Source: Arthrobacter stackebrandtii
Lineage (GTDB): Bacteria > Actinomycetota > Actinomycetes > Actinomycetales > Micrococcaceae
Assembly: GCF_017876675.1 (NCBI RefSeq)
Contig: NZ_JAGIOI010000001.1
Span: 3,348,001-3,412,000 of the forward strand
Reading direction: 5' to 3'
Length of the DNA: 64,000 nt
Part shown: positions 52,476 to 56,558 of the stretch, in pieces
Layout of the letters: each line of letters opens with the position of its first letter
Numbering within the stretch: position 1 is the first letter of the stretch
Notes under the pieces: generated by a model
Database searches by the model: none
Told to the model about the DNA's origin: nothing
What the model saw: the letters and a program-made list of their open reading frames with translations, nothing else
Position numbers and translations under genes: made by a program

Positions 52476-52548
52476 GGGTCTTTAGCTCAGCTGGTAGAGC
52501 GCCACGTTTACACCGTGGATGTCATCGGTTCGATCCCGGTAGGACCCA
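52476..52548 (+). tRNA. tRNA-Val (anticodon TAC)
   Basis: A full cloverleaf of 73 nt: acceptor GGGTCTT with AGGACCC (one G-T pair), D stem GCTC/GAGC, anticodon stem CCACG/CGTGG with loop TTTACAC (anticodon TAC), and T loop TTCGATC. The discriminator is A52548 and the next bases are CCC, so the CCA end is not encoded. A -10-like TACAGT lies at 52415-52420. Confidence 0.95.
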
Positions 52549-52704: not shown

Positions 52705-53859
52705 TCATCGGCTTCTTCCGCCCCATCCTTGTTGGATTCCGTTCCCGTCTTCGGGGCTGAAGGCTGTGTCGTAGAGGGCTGGCCCGATGGGCTCTTCGAT
52801 GGTTTTGCTTTGTTTTCTTTGGGGCTGCCAGTGGCTGGGTTTCACGAACGTCCAGGGGTCTTTCGGAGACTCGCTGTGGAGGTAGAGGTACCAGTCAACG
52901 GCTCGTTTGGCGTGGTCGTCGGTGAGACCACGGTGATCGCGTAGAAGGTGCTTGAGACCGGCATTGATTCCGCCTTCCAAGGGGCTGGTGGTGCGGTCGA
53001 TCTTGTGCTCGTTGGTGGCGGCGGTGAGCCAAGTGAACAGGTGCCCATTTTTCAATACCGTGGCCAGTGTTCCGCGGGCCCGACGCAGGCGTAGATGTGT
53101 AAACCACCATTGCTGGTTCGTGCCGATATGGGAGGGCCTCTCGCCGTTCTTCTTCGCGTAGGTTCGGGTCTTCAAGAAGGACTCCCAGCGTGCTTCCCAG
53201 GAAGCGAATTCCCCGGCCCAGACAGCGGCTTGGTCAAGGTCTTGGATCGGTGTCAGGGCCTTGGCTAGTGCCAGTAATTCCTTGCCGGCATCGAGGTTTG
53301 GGCGCATCGTGAGGTGTGTTCGAATGTTCTGCTGGATATGAAAAAGACACCGTTGCACCTTCGTCTCTGGCCAGTGCTCGCGCAGCGCACTTTCCAGGCC
53401 TTTGTGCCCGTCAACGATCGCGACCGCAGGTGCCGGGATTTGTTGCAGCAGGGCAGACCAGGACGCATTCTTTTCTCTGTCGCACCACTGCCAGGCGATG
53501 ACGTGGTTGCCGGTGTAGGCGACCAGCACGCACCAGTCGTTGAAGTACGTTCCGTCAAGCATGATCTGGGGGTGTATTTCGCCGCTCACGACGGCTGTAG
53601 GGGGCACCGTCCAGCACCAGGCACTCTGACGCCTAAAGGTGCGTGCGGAGCCTGCATGGGCTTCCTGACGGTCCTTGCCGGTGATCCAGGACAGGAACGC
53701 TGTGAACTCTGCTTTCTTGCTGACATCGACACGTGACTGGGTGCTGGAAGCACCACAGGACTTGCACCGCCACCTAGTTCTTCCCGCGCTGGTCTTGCCA
53801 TTCTTTACGAGCTTCTTAGTACATACACCACACCTGGGGTGATTCTTGGGAACTGTCAC
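52705..53859 (-). CDS. IS1249-type transposase
   Basis: About 384 residues. An N-terminal zinc ribbon (CGVCTKKLVKNGKTSAGRTRWRCKSCGAS) precedes a DDE domain: Asp in IMLDGTYFNDW, Asp in AIVDGHKGLESALREHWPETKVQRCLFHIQQN and Glu in TSPLEGGINAGLKHLLRDHRG. The zinc ribbon plus this catalytic set is the IS1249 branch of IS256. I use GTG 53859 (MTVPKNHPRCGVC); an ATG at 53895 is in frame but would put a palindrome into the coding region. GC content is lower than in the flanking genes. Confidence 0.9.
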   Translation of the reverse strand: MTVPKNHPRCGVCTKKLVKNGKTSAGRTRWRCKSCGASSTQSRVDVSKKAEFTAFLSWITGKDRQEAHAGSARTFRRQSAWCWTVPPTAVVSGEIHPQIMLDGTYFNDWCVLVAYTGNHVIAWQWCDREKNASWSALLQQIPAPAVAIVDGHKGLESALREHWPETKVQRCLFHIQQNIRTHLTMRPNLDAGKELLALAKALTPIQDLDQAAVWAGEFASWEARWESFLKTRTYAKKNGERPSHIGTNQQWWFTHLRLRRARGTLATVLKNGHLFTWLTAATNEHKIDRTTSPLEGGINAGLKHLLRDHRGLTDDHAKRAVDWYLYLHSESPKDPWTFVKPSHWQPQRKQSKTIEEPIGPALYDTAFSPEDGNGIQQGWGGRSR

Positions 53860-53860
53860 C

Positions 53861-53883
53861 GTACATGCTTTCAAAGCATGTAC
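53861..53883. promoter_or_regulatory. Perfect hairpin covering the transposase ribosome site
   Basis: GTACATGCTTT and its complement pair over 11 bp with a one-base centre at 53872, ending one base before GTG 53859. In a long transcript entering the element from outside, the hairpin would hide the GAAAG ribosome site, as shown for IS10 and IS50. The effect here is inferred. Confidence 0.55.
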
Positions 53884-53952
53884 AGGGCCCTGCATCCCAT
53901 ATGATTACTGGCCAAAAGCCACTTTTCATACACACATTCTGGCCGCTAACCC

Positions 53953-53960: not shown

Positions 53961-55011
53961 CGATCGACTTTGAAACCGCCAACAACTTCCGGGCCTCGGC
54001 CTGCGCCGTGGGCATGACCAAGGTGCGGGCCGGCGTGGTGGTTGAGCAAGTGTCCTGGCTCATGAAGCCGCTGCCCGGCTTTGACGACTTCCACCCCGTC
54101 AACGTGGGCATCCACGGCATTACAGCCGCCCAGGTGCGGAACATGCCGGATTGGCGGGGCATCCACGGGCCCATGCTGGACTTCATTGGCGCCGACGCGC
54201 TGGTGGGCCACAACGTCAGCTTTGAGAAGTCGGTGATTTCCAAGGCGAACGAGGCCTGCGGGCTTCCCGCCCCGGCCTTTGACTTCCACTGCACCTTGAA
54301 CCTGGCCAGGCAGCACCTGGTGCTGGACCACTACACGTTGTCGGACGTTGTGGGTGCGCTGGCGCTTCCGGCCTTTAACCACCACGACGCCGGCGACGAC
54401 GCGCGCGCCAGCGCGTTGATTGCCATTGAACTCGCCAGGCGCAACGGTGCCTCAAGTCTGGGCGCCTTGTGGCCCGGCGAATCAAGGCCGCGGGTGCCCG
54501 CCTATTACTCTCCGGGCTACACGCGCAAGGTGTCGGAACTGCCGAAAGCCAACCCGGATGCGAACCCTTACGGTCCGCTCTTTGGCCAGACCATTGTGTT
54601 CAGCGGGGACCTGGCTGCCATGCCGCGTGCGGACGCCCAGGACGCTGCGGCGGCCAAGGGTGCGGTGATCGCCAACGGCGCCACCAAAAAGGTCACGCTG
54701 GTGGTCAGTGCGGATGCCGGGGGATCAGGCCGGCAGAGCGCCAAGGTCAGGCGCGCCCATGAGCTGGCCGCGGCGGGCCAGGACATCAAGGTCATCAGCG
54801 AGCTGCAGTTCCTGCGCCTGCTGGCCTTCAAGTAGCCGCCGCCAGTCGGCCCGCGACACAGTCCGCGACGGCGCGGCCTGTGGGCACGCCCCTCCCGAAG
54901 GTGACATCCACGGTGTATATGTGGAGCTCTTCCAGGCGCCCCGCCGTGGGCCATCCCATGTGCGGTGGCAGCCGGGGAGCAATGTCGGACCCCTCCCGTA
55001 GCGTTCCCTGC

Positions 55012-55299
55012 ATGAGATTGCCGGGGGAAGAAGTGCTGGTGGAAACCACGGATGAGGGCGTGCCTGTCAGGGTGCACCGCAATGGCAGGCTGTGGACGGT
55101 GGGGGCGGAGCCGATGCGCTGGTATGAGCGCACGCCCTGGTGGGAGTACATGCAGCGGATGCCCAAAGGGCAGGGCCGCGTGGATGTCCAGGTGTGGCGG
55201 GTGCAGGCGCGGCTGGGGCAGAACATGCGCAGCGATCTCGTCACCATGGACCTGGAGTGCGAGCTCGAGGGAGGCCGGTGGCGCATGAGGGAGGGTTAA
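55012..55299 (+). CDS. DUF6504-like small protein
   Basis: 95 residues: EEVLVETTDEGVPVRVHRNGRLWTVGAEPMRWYERTPWW, then VDVQVWRVQARLG. This matches the pattern of a small actinobacterial family (EPVxV, P-x-F-x-W-x-G-R-x-Y, WxE-x-x-WW) that I recall as DUF6504, often near Y-family polymerase genes. ATG 55012 is chosen by similarity; GTTCCC upstream is not a ribosome site, so the start is uncertain. 54836-55011 holds no other gene. Confidence 0.7.
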   Translation: MRLPGEEVLVETTDEGVPVRVHRNGRLWTVGAEPMRWYERTPWWEYMQRMPKGQGRVDVQVWRVQARLGQNMRSDLVTMDLECELEGGRWRMREG

Positions 55300-55306
55300 A
55301 CTGAAA

Positions 55307-55370
55307 GGTTCCCCGCCACAGCTATTGGGGGACGCTGTGGTGGGGAACCAGTAATAAAAATATAACTGGT
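55307..55370 (+). ncRNA. Two-hairpin motif, copy 1 (candidate structured RNA or ssDNA element)
   Basis: A 15-bp stem (55307-55321 with 55335-55349; one G-T pair) closes the 13-nt loop CTATTGGGGGACG (55322-55334). It overlaps a second hairpin ACCAGT...ACTGGT (55347-55352 with 55365-55370) whose 12-nt loop is AATAAAAATATA. The two hairpins compete for three bases. It begins eight bases after the DUF6504-like gene. It is not a terminator, as no T run follows. Confidence 0.6.
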
Positions 55371-55545
55371 CGAGAGCCACAATGCAAACTGACACTCAAC
55401 ATTTCCAGATTATTAACAGCTGGCTGTCAGCGGGCGCTCAACTTGGCGCCTGCGGCCGTGTGAAGTGCCGGCCCGGCACGGCACCAGACGCCGTGATACC
55501 GTGGGGCGGTTGCCCTTGGCGTGCCATTGAGGCCTTAAATTGGAG

Positions 55546-55605
55546 GACCTCCCACTGTGGCTATTGGGGGACGCCACAGTGGAAGGTCTGAGAAGAAATA
55601 TACAG
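55546..55605 (+). ncRNA. Two-hairpin motif, copy 2
   Basis: A 15-bp stem (55546-55560 with 55574-55588; one C-A mismatch) closes the identical loop CTATTGGGGGACG (55561-55573). The stem sequence is different from copy 1 but still paired. A small CTG/CAG hairpin follows (55588-55590 with 55603-55605) around AGAAGAAATATA, like the 12-nt loop of copy 1. The copies are 239 bases apart, in the same direction, 150 bases before the IclR gene. The gap 55300-55754 holds no supported gene. Confidence 0.6.
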
Positions 55606-55640
55606 TCTCCGGGGCCAAATCACAACACGGGACGTTCTAC

Positions 55641-55660
55641 GTTCACCTGAACAGTATGAT
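55641..55660 (+). promoter_or_regulatory. Candidate IclR operator and -10 element
   Basis: GTTCACCTGAAC (55641-55652) is a perfect 5-bp dyad with a CC centre, followed by the -10-like TATGAT (55655-55660), about 95 bases before the regulator gene. The half GTTCACC recurs at about 56609 ahead of the transporter gene. Confidence 0.45.
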
Positions 55661-55754
55661 GAATGATGTCCACTGCAATGTACAGTTTTTTGGCCTGCAG
55701 AACGCCGCCCGGGGCCGGTCCCGGTGCCTTCAATGTTGAGGAAAACGAAAACAC

Positions 55755-56558
55755 GTGAGCAATATTCTTGCCGAGCCCGTCAAGGGCAATGAGGCGCGGG
55801 GTCACGGTTCTCCCGCCCCGGCCGTCACCCGTGCCGCGGCCGTGCTGGACGCGCTGGCCGGCTGTGAAACGGGGCGGCTGACGCTCAGCGACCTGGCCCG
55901 GGAGCTGGGCATCCCCAAGTCCTCGACCTCAAACCTGCTGCAGGCCCTCGAGGACGCAGAGCTGATTACCCGGGTCGGGTCCGACTATGCCCTGGGCGTT
56001 CGGCTGGTGGAGCTCGGTGCCGCATACCTCAGCCGCCGCGACGAAGTGCGGGAGTTCTACCGTTTCTGCGAGGCCGCACCTGTGCTCAAGGGCGAGACGG
56101 TGCGCATCGCCATGCTTGACGGCGGAAACGTCATCTACCTGGCCCGCTATGAAGGCCACCCGGCCGTCCGGTTGACCTCAAACATCGGCGACAAGATGCC
56201 GGTCTCCCTGTGCGCGGTGGGCAAGGTGCTGGTGGCGAAGCTGCACGACCATGACCTGGACCAGCAGTTTCCCGACGAATCCCCCCTGCCCGTCCTGACG
56301 CCCAATTCGCTGCGGACGGGGCGTGAGCTGAAGGAGCAAATCGGCGCCATCCGCCAGCAGGGCTATGCGTTTGAGGACGAGGAGTCGACCCTGGGCGTGG
56401 TCAGCCTGGCGGTGGCCGTGCCAACGCGCGGCTCGCACGGCCCCAGCCTGGGCGTTTCCGTCACGGCGCTCAAGGCGACGTTTTCGGACGGCCAGCGGGA
56501 TGCCATGGTGGCCGAGCTGACCGAACTGACCAAAATGCTGGGAAATCCCATGGGCTAG
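55755..56558 (+). CDS. IclR-family transcriptional regulator
   Basis: 267 residues. The winged helix is VTRAAAVLDALAGCETGRLTLSDLARELGIPKSSTSNLLQALEDAELI, and the effector domain has CAVGKVLVAKL and GYAFEDEESTLGVVSLAVAV. GTG 55755 is the start, with GAGGAAAACG about 12 bases upstream. It precedes the MHS transporter in the same direction and probably controls that gene and the dehydrogenase genes beyond. Confidence 0.9.
   Translation: MSNILAEPVKGNEARGHGSPAPAVTRAAAVLDALAGCETGRLTLSDLARELGIPKSSTSNLLQALEDAELITRVGSDYALGVRLVELGAAYLSRRDEVREFYRFCEAAPVLKGETVRIAMLDGGNVIYLARYEGHPAVRLTSNIGDKMPVSLCAVGKVLVAKLHDHDLDQQFPDESPLPVLTPNSLRTGRELKEQIGAIRQQGYAFEDEESTLGVVSLAVAVPTRGSHGPSLGVSVTALKATFSDGQRDAMVAELTELTKMLGNPMG

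Follow-up and report, generated by a model that had tools for sequence, protein, structure and literature searches.

Two adjacent putative small RNA genes sharing a conserved C-rich hairpin loop in Arthrobacter and related Micrococcaceae

INTRODUCTION

Sibling small RNAs (sRNAs) are tandem paralogues with a common seed. In Mycobacterium abscessus, either C-rich loop of the sRNA B11 suffices for repression via a G-rich ribosome-binding site, and the targets named in the available text of that report include ESX-4 secretion genes (PMC10470900). In the 6C RNA of Corynebacterium glutamicum, both stem-loops are described as lying in one RNA of about 100 nt (PMC4046766). The alpha-r14/cuckoo RNAs, as presented in two reports, have an ultraconserved C-rich anti-Shine-Dalgarno (anti-SD) loop, freely differing stems, and several sibling hairpins (PMC10746234, PMC3927594), and the CcsR RNAs are reported to be processed from a transcript that also carries a DUF1127 gene (PMC10253847). 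According to one account, no Hfq homologue has been identified in Actinobacteria by sequence searches (PMC6789036).

Here, we describe a pair of hairpins in a 64,000-nucleotide stretch of Arthrobacter stackebrandtii DNA (the window) and their relatives, reading the hairpins, strand, promoter sites, covariation, distribution, and shared loop from the sequence. The two hairpins are very probably two small, unannotated regulatory sRNA genes on the minus strand. What the initial annotation of the locus had observed is confirmed in part, and its interpretation appears partly right once turned to the opposite strand.

RESULTS

The window holds, 239 nt apart, two hairpins with an identical 13-nt string, CTATTGGGGGACG, and different 15-nt arms, just where the initial annotation had placed two units with that loop string on different stems. 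In the host's own genome GCTATTGGGGGACGC occurs at exactly two places, both of them the window hairpins, and two further sites have two mismatches. The boundary drawn earlier, a 15-bp stem around a 13-nt loop, shifts although the string itself stands: at its two ends the 13-nt loop carries C-G, U-A, or U-G in nearly every relative, and because these outer two letters pair, each hairpin has 16 stem positions and an 11-nt loop, with the consensus RUCCCCCAAUR in both (Table 1). Read along the minus strand, the order is promoter, hairpin, tail, spacer, promoter, hairpin, and tail. Folding gave z scores of -8.2 and -6.6 on the minus strand, far beyond chance, with none of 200 shuffles folding as well, and of -4.2 and -5.2 on the plus strand.

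Table 1. Features of the locus, with positions counted from the first letter of the window
Feature	Positions	Strand	Details	Basis
Promoter of RNA-1	55597..55625	-	TTGTGA, 17 nt, TATATT	Promoter scan; -10 conserved in relatives
RNA-1 (type 1) hairpin	55546..55588	-	16-bp stem 55588-55573 / 55561-55546; loop 55572-55562 GTCCCCCAATA	Folding, covariation
RNA-1 3' tail, probable RNA end	55534..55545	-	CTCCAATTTAAG (genus consensus ntnCAntTTAAg)	T-rich positions
Conserved element upstream of RNA-1 -35	55630..55640	-	GTAGAACGTCC; possible activator site	Genus consensus
Promoter of RNA-2	55359..55388	-	TTTGCA, 18 nt, TATATT	Promoter scan, conservation in relatives
RNA-2 (type 2) hairpin	55307..55349	-	16-position stem 55349-55334 / 55322-55307, one A.C mismatch; loop 55333-55323 GTCCCCCAATA	Folding, covariation
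RNA-2 3' tail	55296..55306	-	TTTCAGTTTAA	Genus alignment
Conserved element overlapping RNA-2 -35 region	55382..55395	-	GTGTCAGTTTGCAT	Genus consensus
IclR-family regulator, divergent neighbor	55755..56558	+		Context only
Uncharacterized ORF convergent with the RNAs	54880..55299	+	Relatives form cluster c12	Context only

The stems change by compensatory substitutions, as had been expected. In type 1 alone (33 sequences), 15 of 16 pairs changed on both sides and 98.7% of cells were paired; in type 2 alone (14 sequences), the values were 11 of 16 and 95.5%. For both types, the percentage of paired cells, the two-sided changes counted by pair or by cell, and the covariation score all exceeded those of every one of 500 shuffles. 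The count of further pair types was reached by 1 of 500 shuffles for type 1 and by 399 of 500 for type 2. A first count with both types pooled (35 units) had given 12 of 15 pairs.

Which strand acts is indicated by the wobble pairs. Among 55 distinct hairpins with pair 9 omitted, 54 G.U pairs fall on the minus strand versus 7 on the plus strand; with pair 9 kept, which is often unpaired in type 2, the figures are 54 and 15. This asymmetry suggests that the pairing acts at the RNA level. The 55 hairpins came from related loci and were picked by TCCCCCAAT plus a stem, a selection that by itself fixes the loop core in this set. Promoter sites lie on the same strand: a 5-of-6 match to TATAAT precedes the hairpin in 63 of 81 distinct upstream contexts, against 3 of 81 on the other flank and 3.1% in shuffles. 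For the -35 element, 50 of 81 upstream contexts matched at 4 or 5 of 6 positions, versus 4 of 81 on the other flank, and spacing was 16 to 18 nt in 72 of 81. The sequences behind these strand and promoter counts are related, and the counts hence are not independent; they include the promoters of the g29 copies, which were themselves read as hairpins. Moreover, a generic promoter scan of both strands of positions 55200-55800 found just two sites, both on the minus strand and both before the hairpins. Reading the plus strand as the functional one, as was first done, finds no support here, with G.U pairs and promoter sites both on the minus strand.

The initial annotation had each stem followed by a small second hairpin, the two competing in copy 1 for three bases as in a switch. 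The second hairpin has 5 bp in copy 1 of the window and fewer than 5 bp in copy 2, and in relatives a loose scan found any hairpin of at least 5 bp there in 11 of 45 units. The stretch corresponds to the -10 region of the minus-strand promoter. Because it is a -10 region, and the hairpin itself is not kept, the three-base competition is not a conserved feature.

The window hairpins start 8 to 9 nt past a sigma-70-type promoter. Across the genus, the distance from -10 to stem is 7 to 8 nt for RNA-1 (21 distinct units) and 9 nt for RNA-2 (19 distinct units), a distance so short that transcription should start at the hairpin foot. The tail has T peaks at positions 2 and 8 (0.86 and 0.84 of 81) and loses them after position 9. 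A terminator scan that allows loops of 3 to 8 nt found none in the region, and the T-rich tail is weak. Could the hairpins instead be cis-acting elements, terminators or leader structures of neighboring genes? The strong GC stem and the T-rich tail after it on the minus strand are what one would expect of them, but a promoter site stands directly upstream of each hairpin, at 18 of the 21 loci compared the first ORF downstream is convergent, and ordinary terminators picked up by our search model lack the loop. We consider a cis-acting role very improbable and retain two sRNA genes as our reading. The conserved elements upstream of the two promoters differ (55630-55640 and 55382-55395, minus strand), which suggests separate activating signals for the twin RNAs.

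Our model R1 matched 22 of 23 genomes of the genus; the remaining member, G021 (90% complete), had no R1 match. In all 22, type 1 is followed by type 2 at 111 to 283 nt. Within the family, 165 of 395 genomes matched at E up to 0.01, with plain terminators among the weak matches. Matches in 15 of 32 family genera overstate the sure spread because the weak ones in g3, g6, g11, g13, g22, and g23 are terminator-like or lie within genes, and relatives of the RNA are present in about eight genera. In g1, g7, g10, g26, g28, and g29, copies have both the loop and a -10-like site; g19 copies have the loop and a poor -10, and g32 copies (L239, L245, and L247) have a type-2-like RNA, a promoter-like site, and a diverged loop, GTTCCCCCCATAT. 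Most g10 genomes have one match, and pairs occur in several g26 and g28 genomes and in the single g29 genome. Two hairpins among weak g24 matches (L246 and L257) keep CCCCCAA in the loop and are possible further relatives. At the level of the order, R1 matched 24 of 396 genomes, eight of them outside the family; all eight extra-family hairpins were read, proved terminator-like without the loop, and were rejected as relatives. Checked against the possibility that the motif had no further copies or that its loops varied as freely as its stems, the survey found copies, and loops that vary far less.

Most compared cases share one syntenic locus, in that a majority of 21 loci have common protein clusters on one or both sides. 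Pfam/NCBIfam searches identified IclR, MFS transporter, and exonuclease neighbors; others we take to be 6-phosphogluconate dehydrogenase, gluconate/idonate dehydrogenases, Sir2-like, peroxiredoxin, and AceE proteins. The convergent ORF (54880..55299) had no Pfam match and no NCBIfam match. Control of the IclR gene, one role first proposed, is not borne out: an IclR relative adjoins 12 of the 21 loci compared and did not turn up at the others, including two in the same genus, and the gene is divergent here. A Mutator/MULE-type transposase gene (window 52705-53895, minus strand) adjoins a tRNA gene (52476-52548).

The loop is the predicted unit of selection: by this reading, the stem need only pair, and the loop is the working part. 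Loops are identical within the pair in 20 of 22 genus pairs, the exceptions being G004 and G010. In G007, both copies are one C shorter on stems that still differ, and in five pairs from other genera both copies have A at loop position 2, which is mostly G in the genus. Between lineages, the length of the C run ranges from 4 to 6, with six C in the second-copy loop of G132 (read separately, outside the pair comparison), and conservation reaches past the C run, to AAU. The same loop also occurs on unrelated stems, one of type AGCGCC..GATG (G354:C6, G200:C28, and G179:C2), one of type AAGCCCTACCGG (G132:C18 and G006:C1), and one at G001:C1:1164914; G009:C31 is a further type-1-like copy. The AGCGCC type lies on a conjugative Arthrobacter plasmid, NZ_CP015733.1, with no annotated feature beneath it and a preceding gene annotated as a recombinase. 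Hairpins on the AAGCCCTACCGG stem are found in two genera (L448, about 4996; L449, about 5126), with no TATATT promoter seen, and one is near a gene, that of the G132 copy, which we presume to be relaxase-like.

The initial annotation had also raised the two ends of a short HUH-transposase-dependent element, to which REP-like DNA may be added. Two copies in the same orientation would suit such an element, as would the recombinase or relaxase-like genes next to some extra copies, yet the locus is syntenic across genera with a spacing of 111 to 283 nt, the two copies have different stems and conserved promoter sites, the G.U asymmetry speaks for RNA-level pairing, and the only two exact copies in the host genome are both at the window locus. 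We find a mobilized element scarcely credible and keep to sRNA genes.

What the loop might bind is suggested by its complement, ATTGGGGGA, which is found just ahead of start codons; AUUGGGGGA sites complementary to the loop precede the start codons of surface-protein genes. The pattern ATTGGGGGA-N3-8-ATG gave 37 sites in 12 genomes of the genus, 33 in 10 g10 genomes, and 8 in 10 genomes from genera where R1 had no match, and a reversed-pattern control gave 3, 4, and 1. With rounded genome sizes, the densities are 0.71, 0.75, and 0.22 per Mb, such that sites are 3.3 to 3.5 times denser in the 22 RNA-bearing genomes (70 sites) than in the 10 without R1 (8 sites); genera without an R1 match could have a different SD usage for reasons unrelated to the RNA. 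In a fixed-spacing search of 10 genomes, ATT made up 8 of 21 WWW combinations, no clear excess, and a control SD search returned 9 sites, too few for use. Predicted duplexes of loop and site have -17.5 to -19.4 kcal/mol versus -6.4 for an AGGAGG site, and five G without AUU have -13.3 kcal/mol with the loop. We think it reasonably likely that the loop pairs with mRNA in anti-SD fashion. Alternatively, the loop could bind a protein rather than mRNA, making the RNA a decoy or sequestering RNA, and both the conservation past the C run to AAU and the presence of the loop on unrelated stems could point that way. The loop complement at ribosome-binding sites, more frequent in RNA-bearing genera, and the variation of the C run between lineages count against a protein partner, which we regard as unlikely.

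The candidate targets of such anti-SD pairing include exported proteins. In RNA-bearing genomes, 46 of 70 sites precede an ORF of at least 75 aa and 24 precede none. By a home-made rule, 22 of the 46 ORFs start with a signal or membrane segment, or 21 without a misclassified epimerase. After filters for coding composition and an open upstream frame, 19 clusters were left, 12 of them exported by the rule and 11 once the UDP-GlcNAc epimerase cluster, misclassified as exported, was recounted as cytosolic. The baseline is 83 exported of 326 genes in a 400-kb sample of the host genome; it replaced an earlier null from syntenic loci (19 of 174) because that null was biased. Fisher tests give p = 0.004 for the 11 of 19 clusters and p = 0.005 for the 21 of 46 ORFs, values that depend on the home-made signal-peptide rule and the filters, and the filters also removed the exported rows L320, L351, L390, L394, L422, L438, and L439. 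A modest bias toward exported proteins is tentative, falling slightly short of an even call. Candidates in the host genome are, at G000:C1:1832863, a 1127-aa adhesin-like protein with SpaA and fimbrial isopeptide domains, whose site CTATTGGGGGAACAAATG has 11 nt complementary to the loop, and, at G000:C1:651036, a protein of 492 aa that has an SdrD_B-like domain. The DM13 lipoproteins encoded in G011 and G105 (two genera, 30% identical) both have ATTGGGGGA, as do the UDP-GlcNAc epimerases of G001 and G011. The lipoprotein genes L355 and L358 (G000) and L361 (G011) have TATGGGGGA as their ribosome-binding site, which nearly matches the loop complement.

That no named RNA family fits, as initially supposed, agrees with Rfam, where no match passes threshold; three sub-threshold matches (mir-9242, mir-1471, and Xoo5) were judged chance. 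The 6C model (RF01066) had no match at gathering over the window and none at E up to 10 over 55250-55760. It had no match in the host genome either, a weak negative because just 1 of 14 control genomes, C. glutamicum, matched, and that below cut-off. The exact loop 15-mer occurs in at least 119 stretches of genome contigs from many phyla. Among the matches listed, a contiguous stem of at least 6 pairs surrounds it at 13 of 124 sites, 11 of which are Arthrobacter, Specibacter, or Psychromicrobium records; the two short stems elsewhere were judged chance. Viral contigs gave 27 stretches with the loop string, L497 being an imperfect hairpin. Viral-contig record L490 (IMGVR_UViG_2865794485_000005) includes the type 1/type 2 pair known from the chromosomal locus, and thus its end is probably host DNA. 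Four phage matches at E = 1 were not convincing, and a plasmid search gave no match for the window copy and none for the AAGCCCTACCGG type. Among the matches listed for the loop string in the literature, there was no actinobacterial paper, and no description of this RNA was found in searches that mostly left subscription papers outside their scope.

DISCUSSION

How the twin RNAs relate to described families is a matter of shared parts. Like 6C/B11 (RF01066, Actinobacteria), they have C-rich hairpin loops, two per system. In contrast to 6C, each hairpin here has its own promoter site and the loops lie 111 to 283 nt apart, although a common long transcript is possible. Moreover, AAUR follows the C run here, and whereas 6C typically has six C per loop, 21 of 22 genus pairs have five in each copy, G007 has four, and a few copies from other genera have six. 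What the sequence shows toward repression via G-rich ribosome-binding sites, as in 6C/B11, is complementarity. With the cuckoo/alpha-r14 RNAs (SmelA075 and NfeR1) and CcsR1-4, the twin RNAs share a conserved C-rich loop, variable stems, and sibling hairpins, but the cuckoo/alpha-r14 loop is CCUCCUCCC as opposed to RUCCCCCAAUR, and three or four hairpins lie in one RNA in Alphaproteobacteria, another phylum. Like sibling sRNAs, they are tandem paralogues with a shared seed, but all types have only the apical loop in common, the AGCGCC and AAGCCCTACCGG stems being unrelated to types 1 and 2. We do not file the RNAs as 6C or cuckoo members because they do not match tested definitions of either family. 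By analogy, the best mechanism is that they would work like 6C/B11 and cuckoo RNAs without belonging to either.

By sequence alone, each gene has what is expected of a trans-acting sRNA, namely, its own promoter, a short structured RNA, and a conserved unpaired seed, and the anatomy is that of a predicted anti-SD sRNA. A trans-acting RNA was among the roles first proposed, and that option gains support. We favor as likely two adjacent, independently transcribed sRNAs whose loop would block G-rich ribosome-binding sites, preferentially of exported or surface proteins. RNA polymerase would start at or just before the stem of each gene, make one 16-bp hairpin with an 11-nt C-rich loop, and stop in the short T-rich tail. 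The RNA would be about 55 to 60 nt because it would start at the stem and stop in so short a tail. Its loop would pair in trans with G-rich ribosome-binding sites of type (U)AUUGGGGGA and thereby block translation, preferentially of exported and surface proteins. In this model, we infer transcription, termination, pairing in the cell, and the target class.

To our knowledge, sequence seldom reveals which part of an actinobacterial sRNA does the work, and here the loop, the genes (two promoter sites and two stems), and candidate targets are all readable. The changed loop of g32, GTTCCCCCCATAT, is a natural test of loop-target coevolution. The plasmid-borne copy, in turn, lets one ask whether mobile elements join a host sRNA regulon by copying the loop alone. 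We speculate, with more doubt than confidence, that Micrococcaceae have a family-wide regulon in which one 11-nt loop on interchangeable minimal hairpins, two chromosomal and others on plasmids or mobile elements, would set translation of AUUGGGGGA-bearing surface proteins, possibly in place of 6C RNA, and that mobile elements would use the same loop to enter the regulon of their host.
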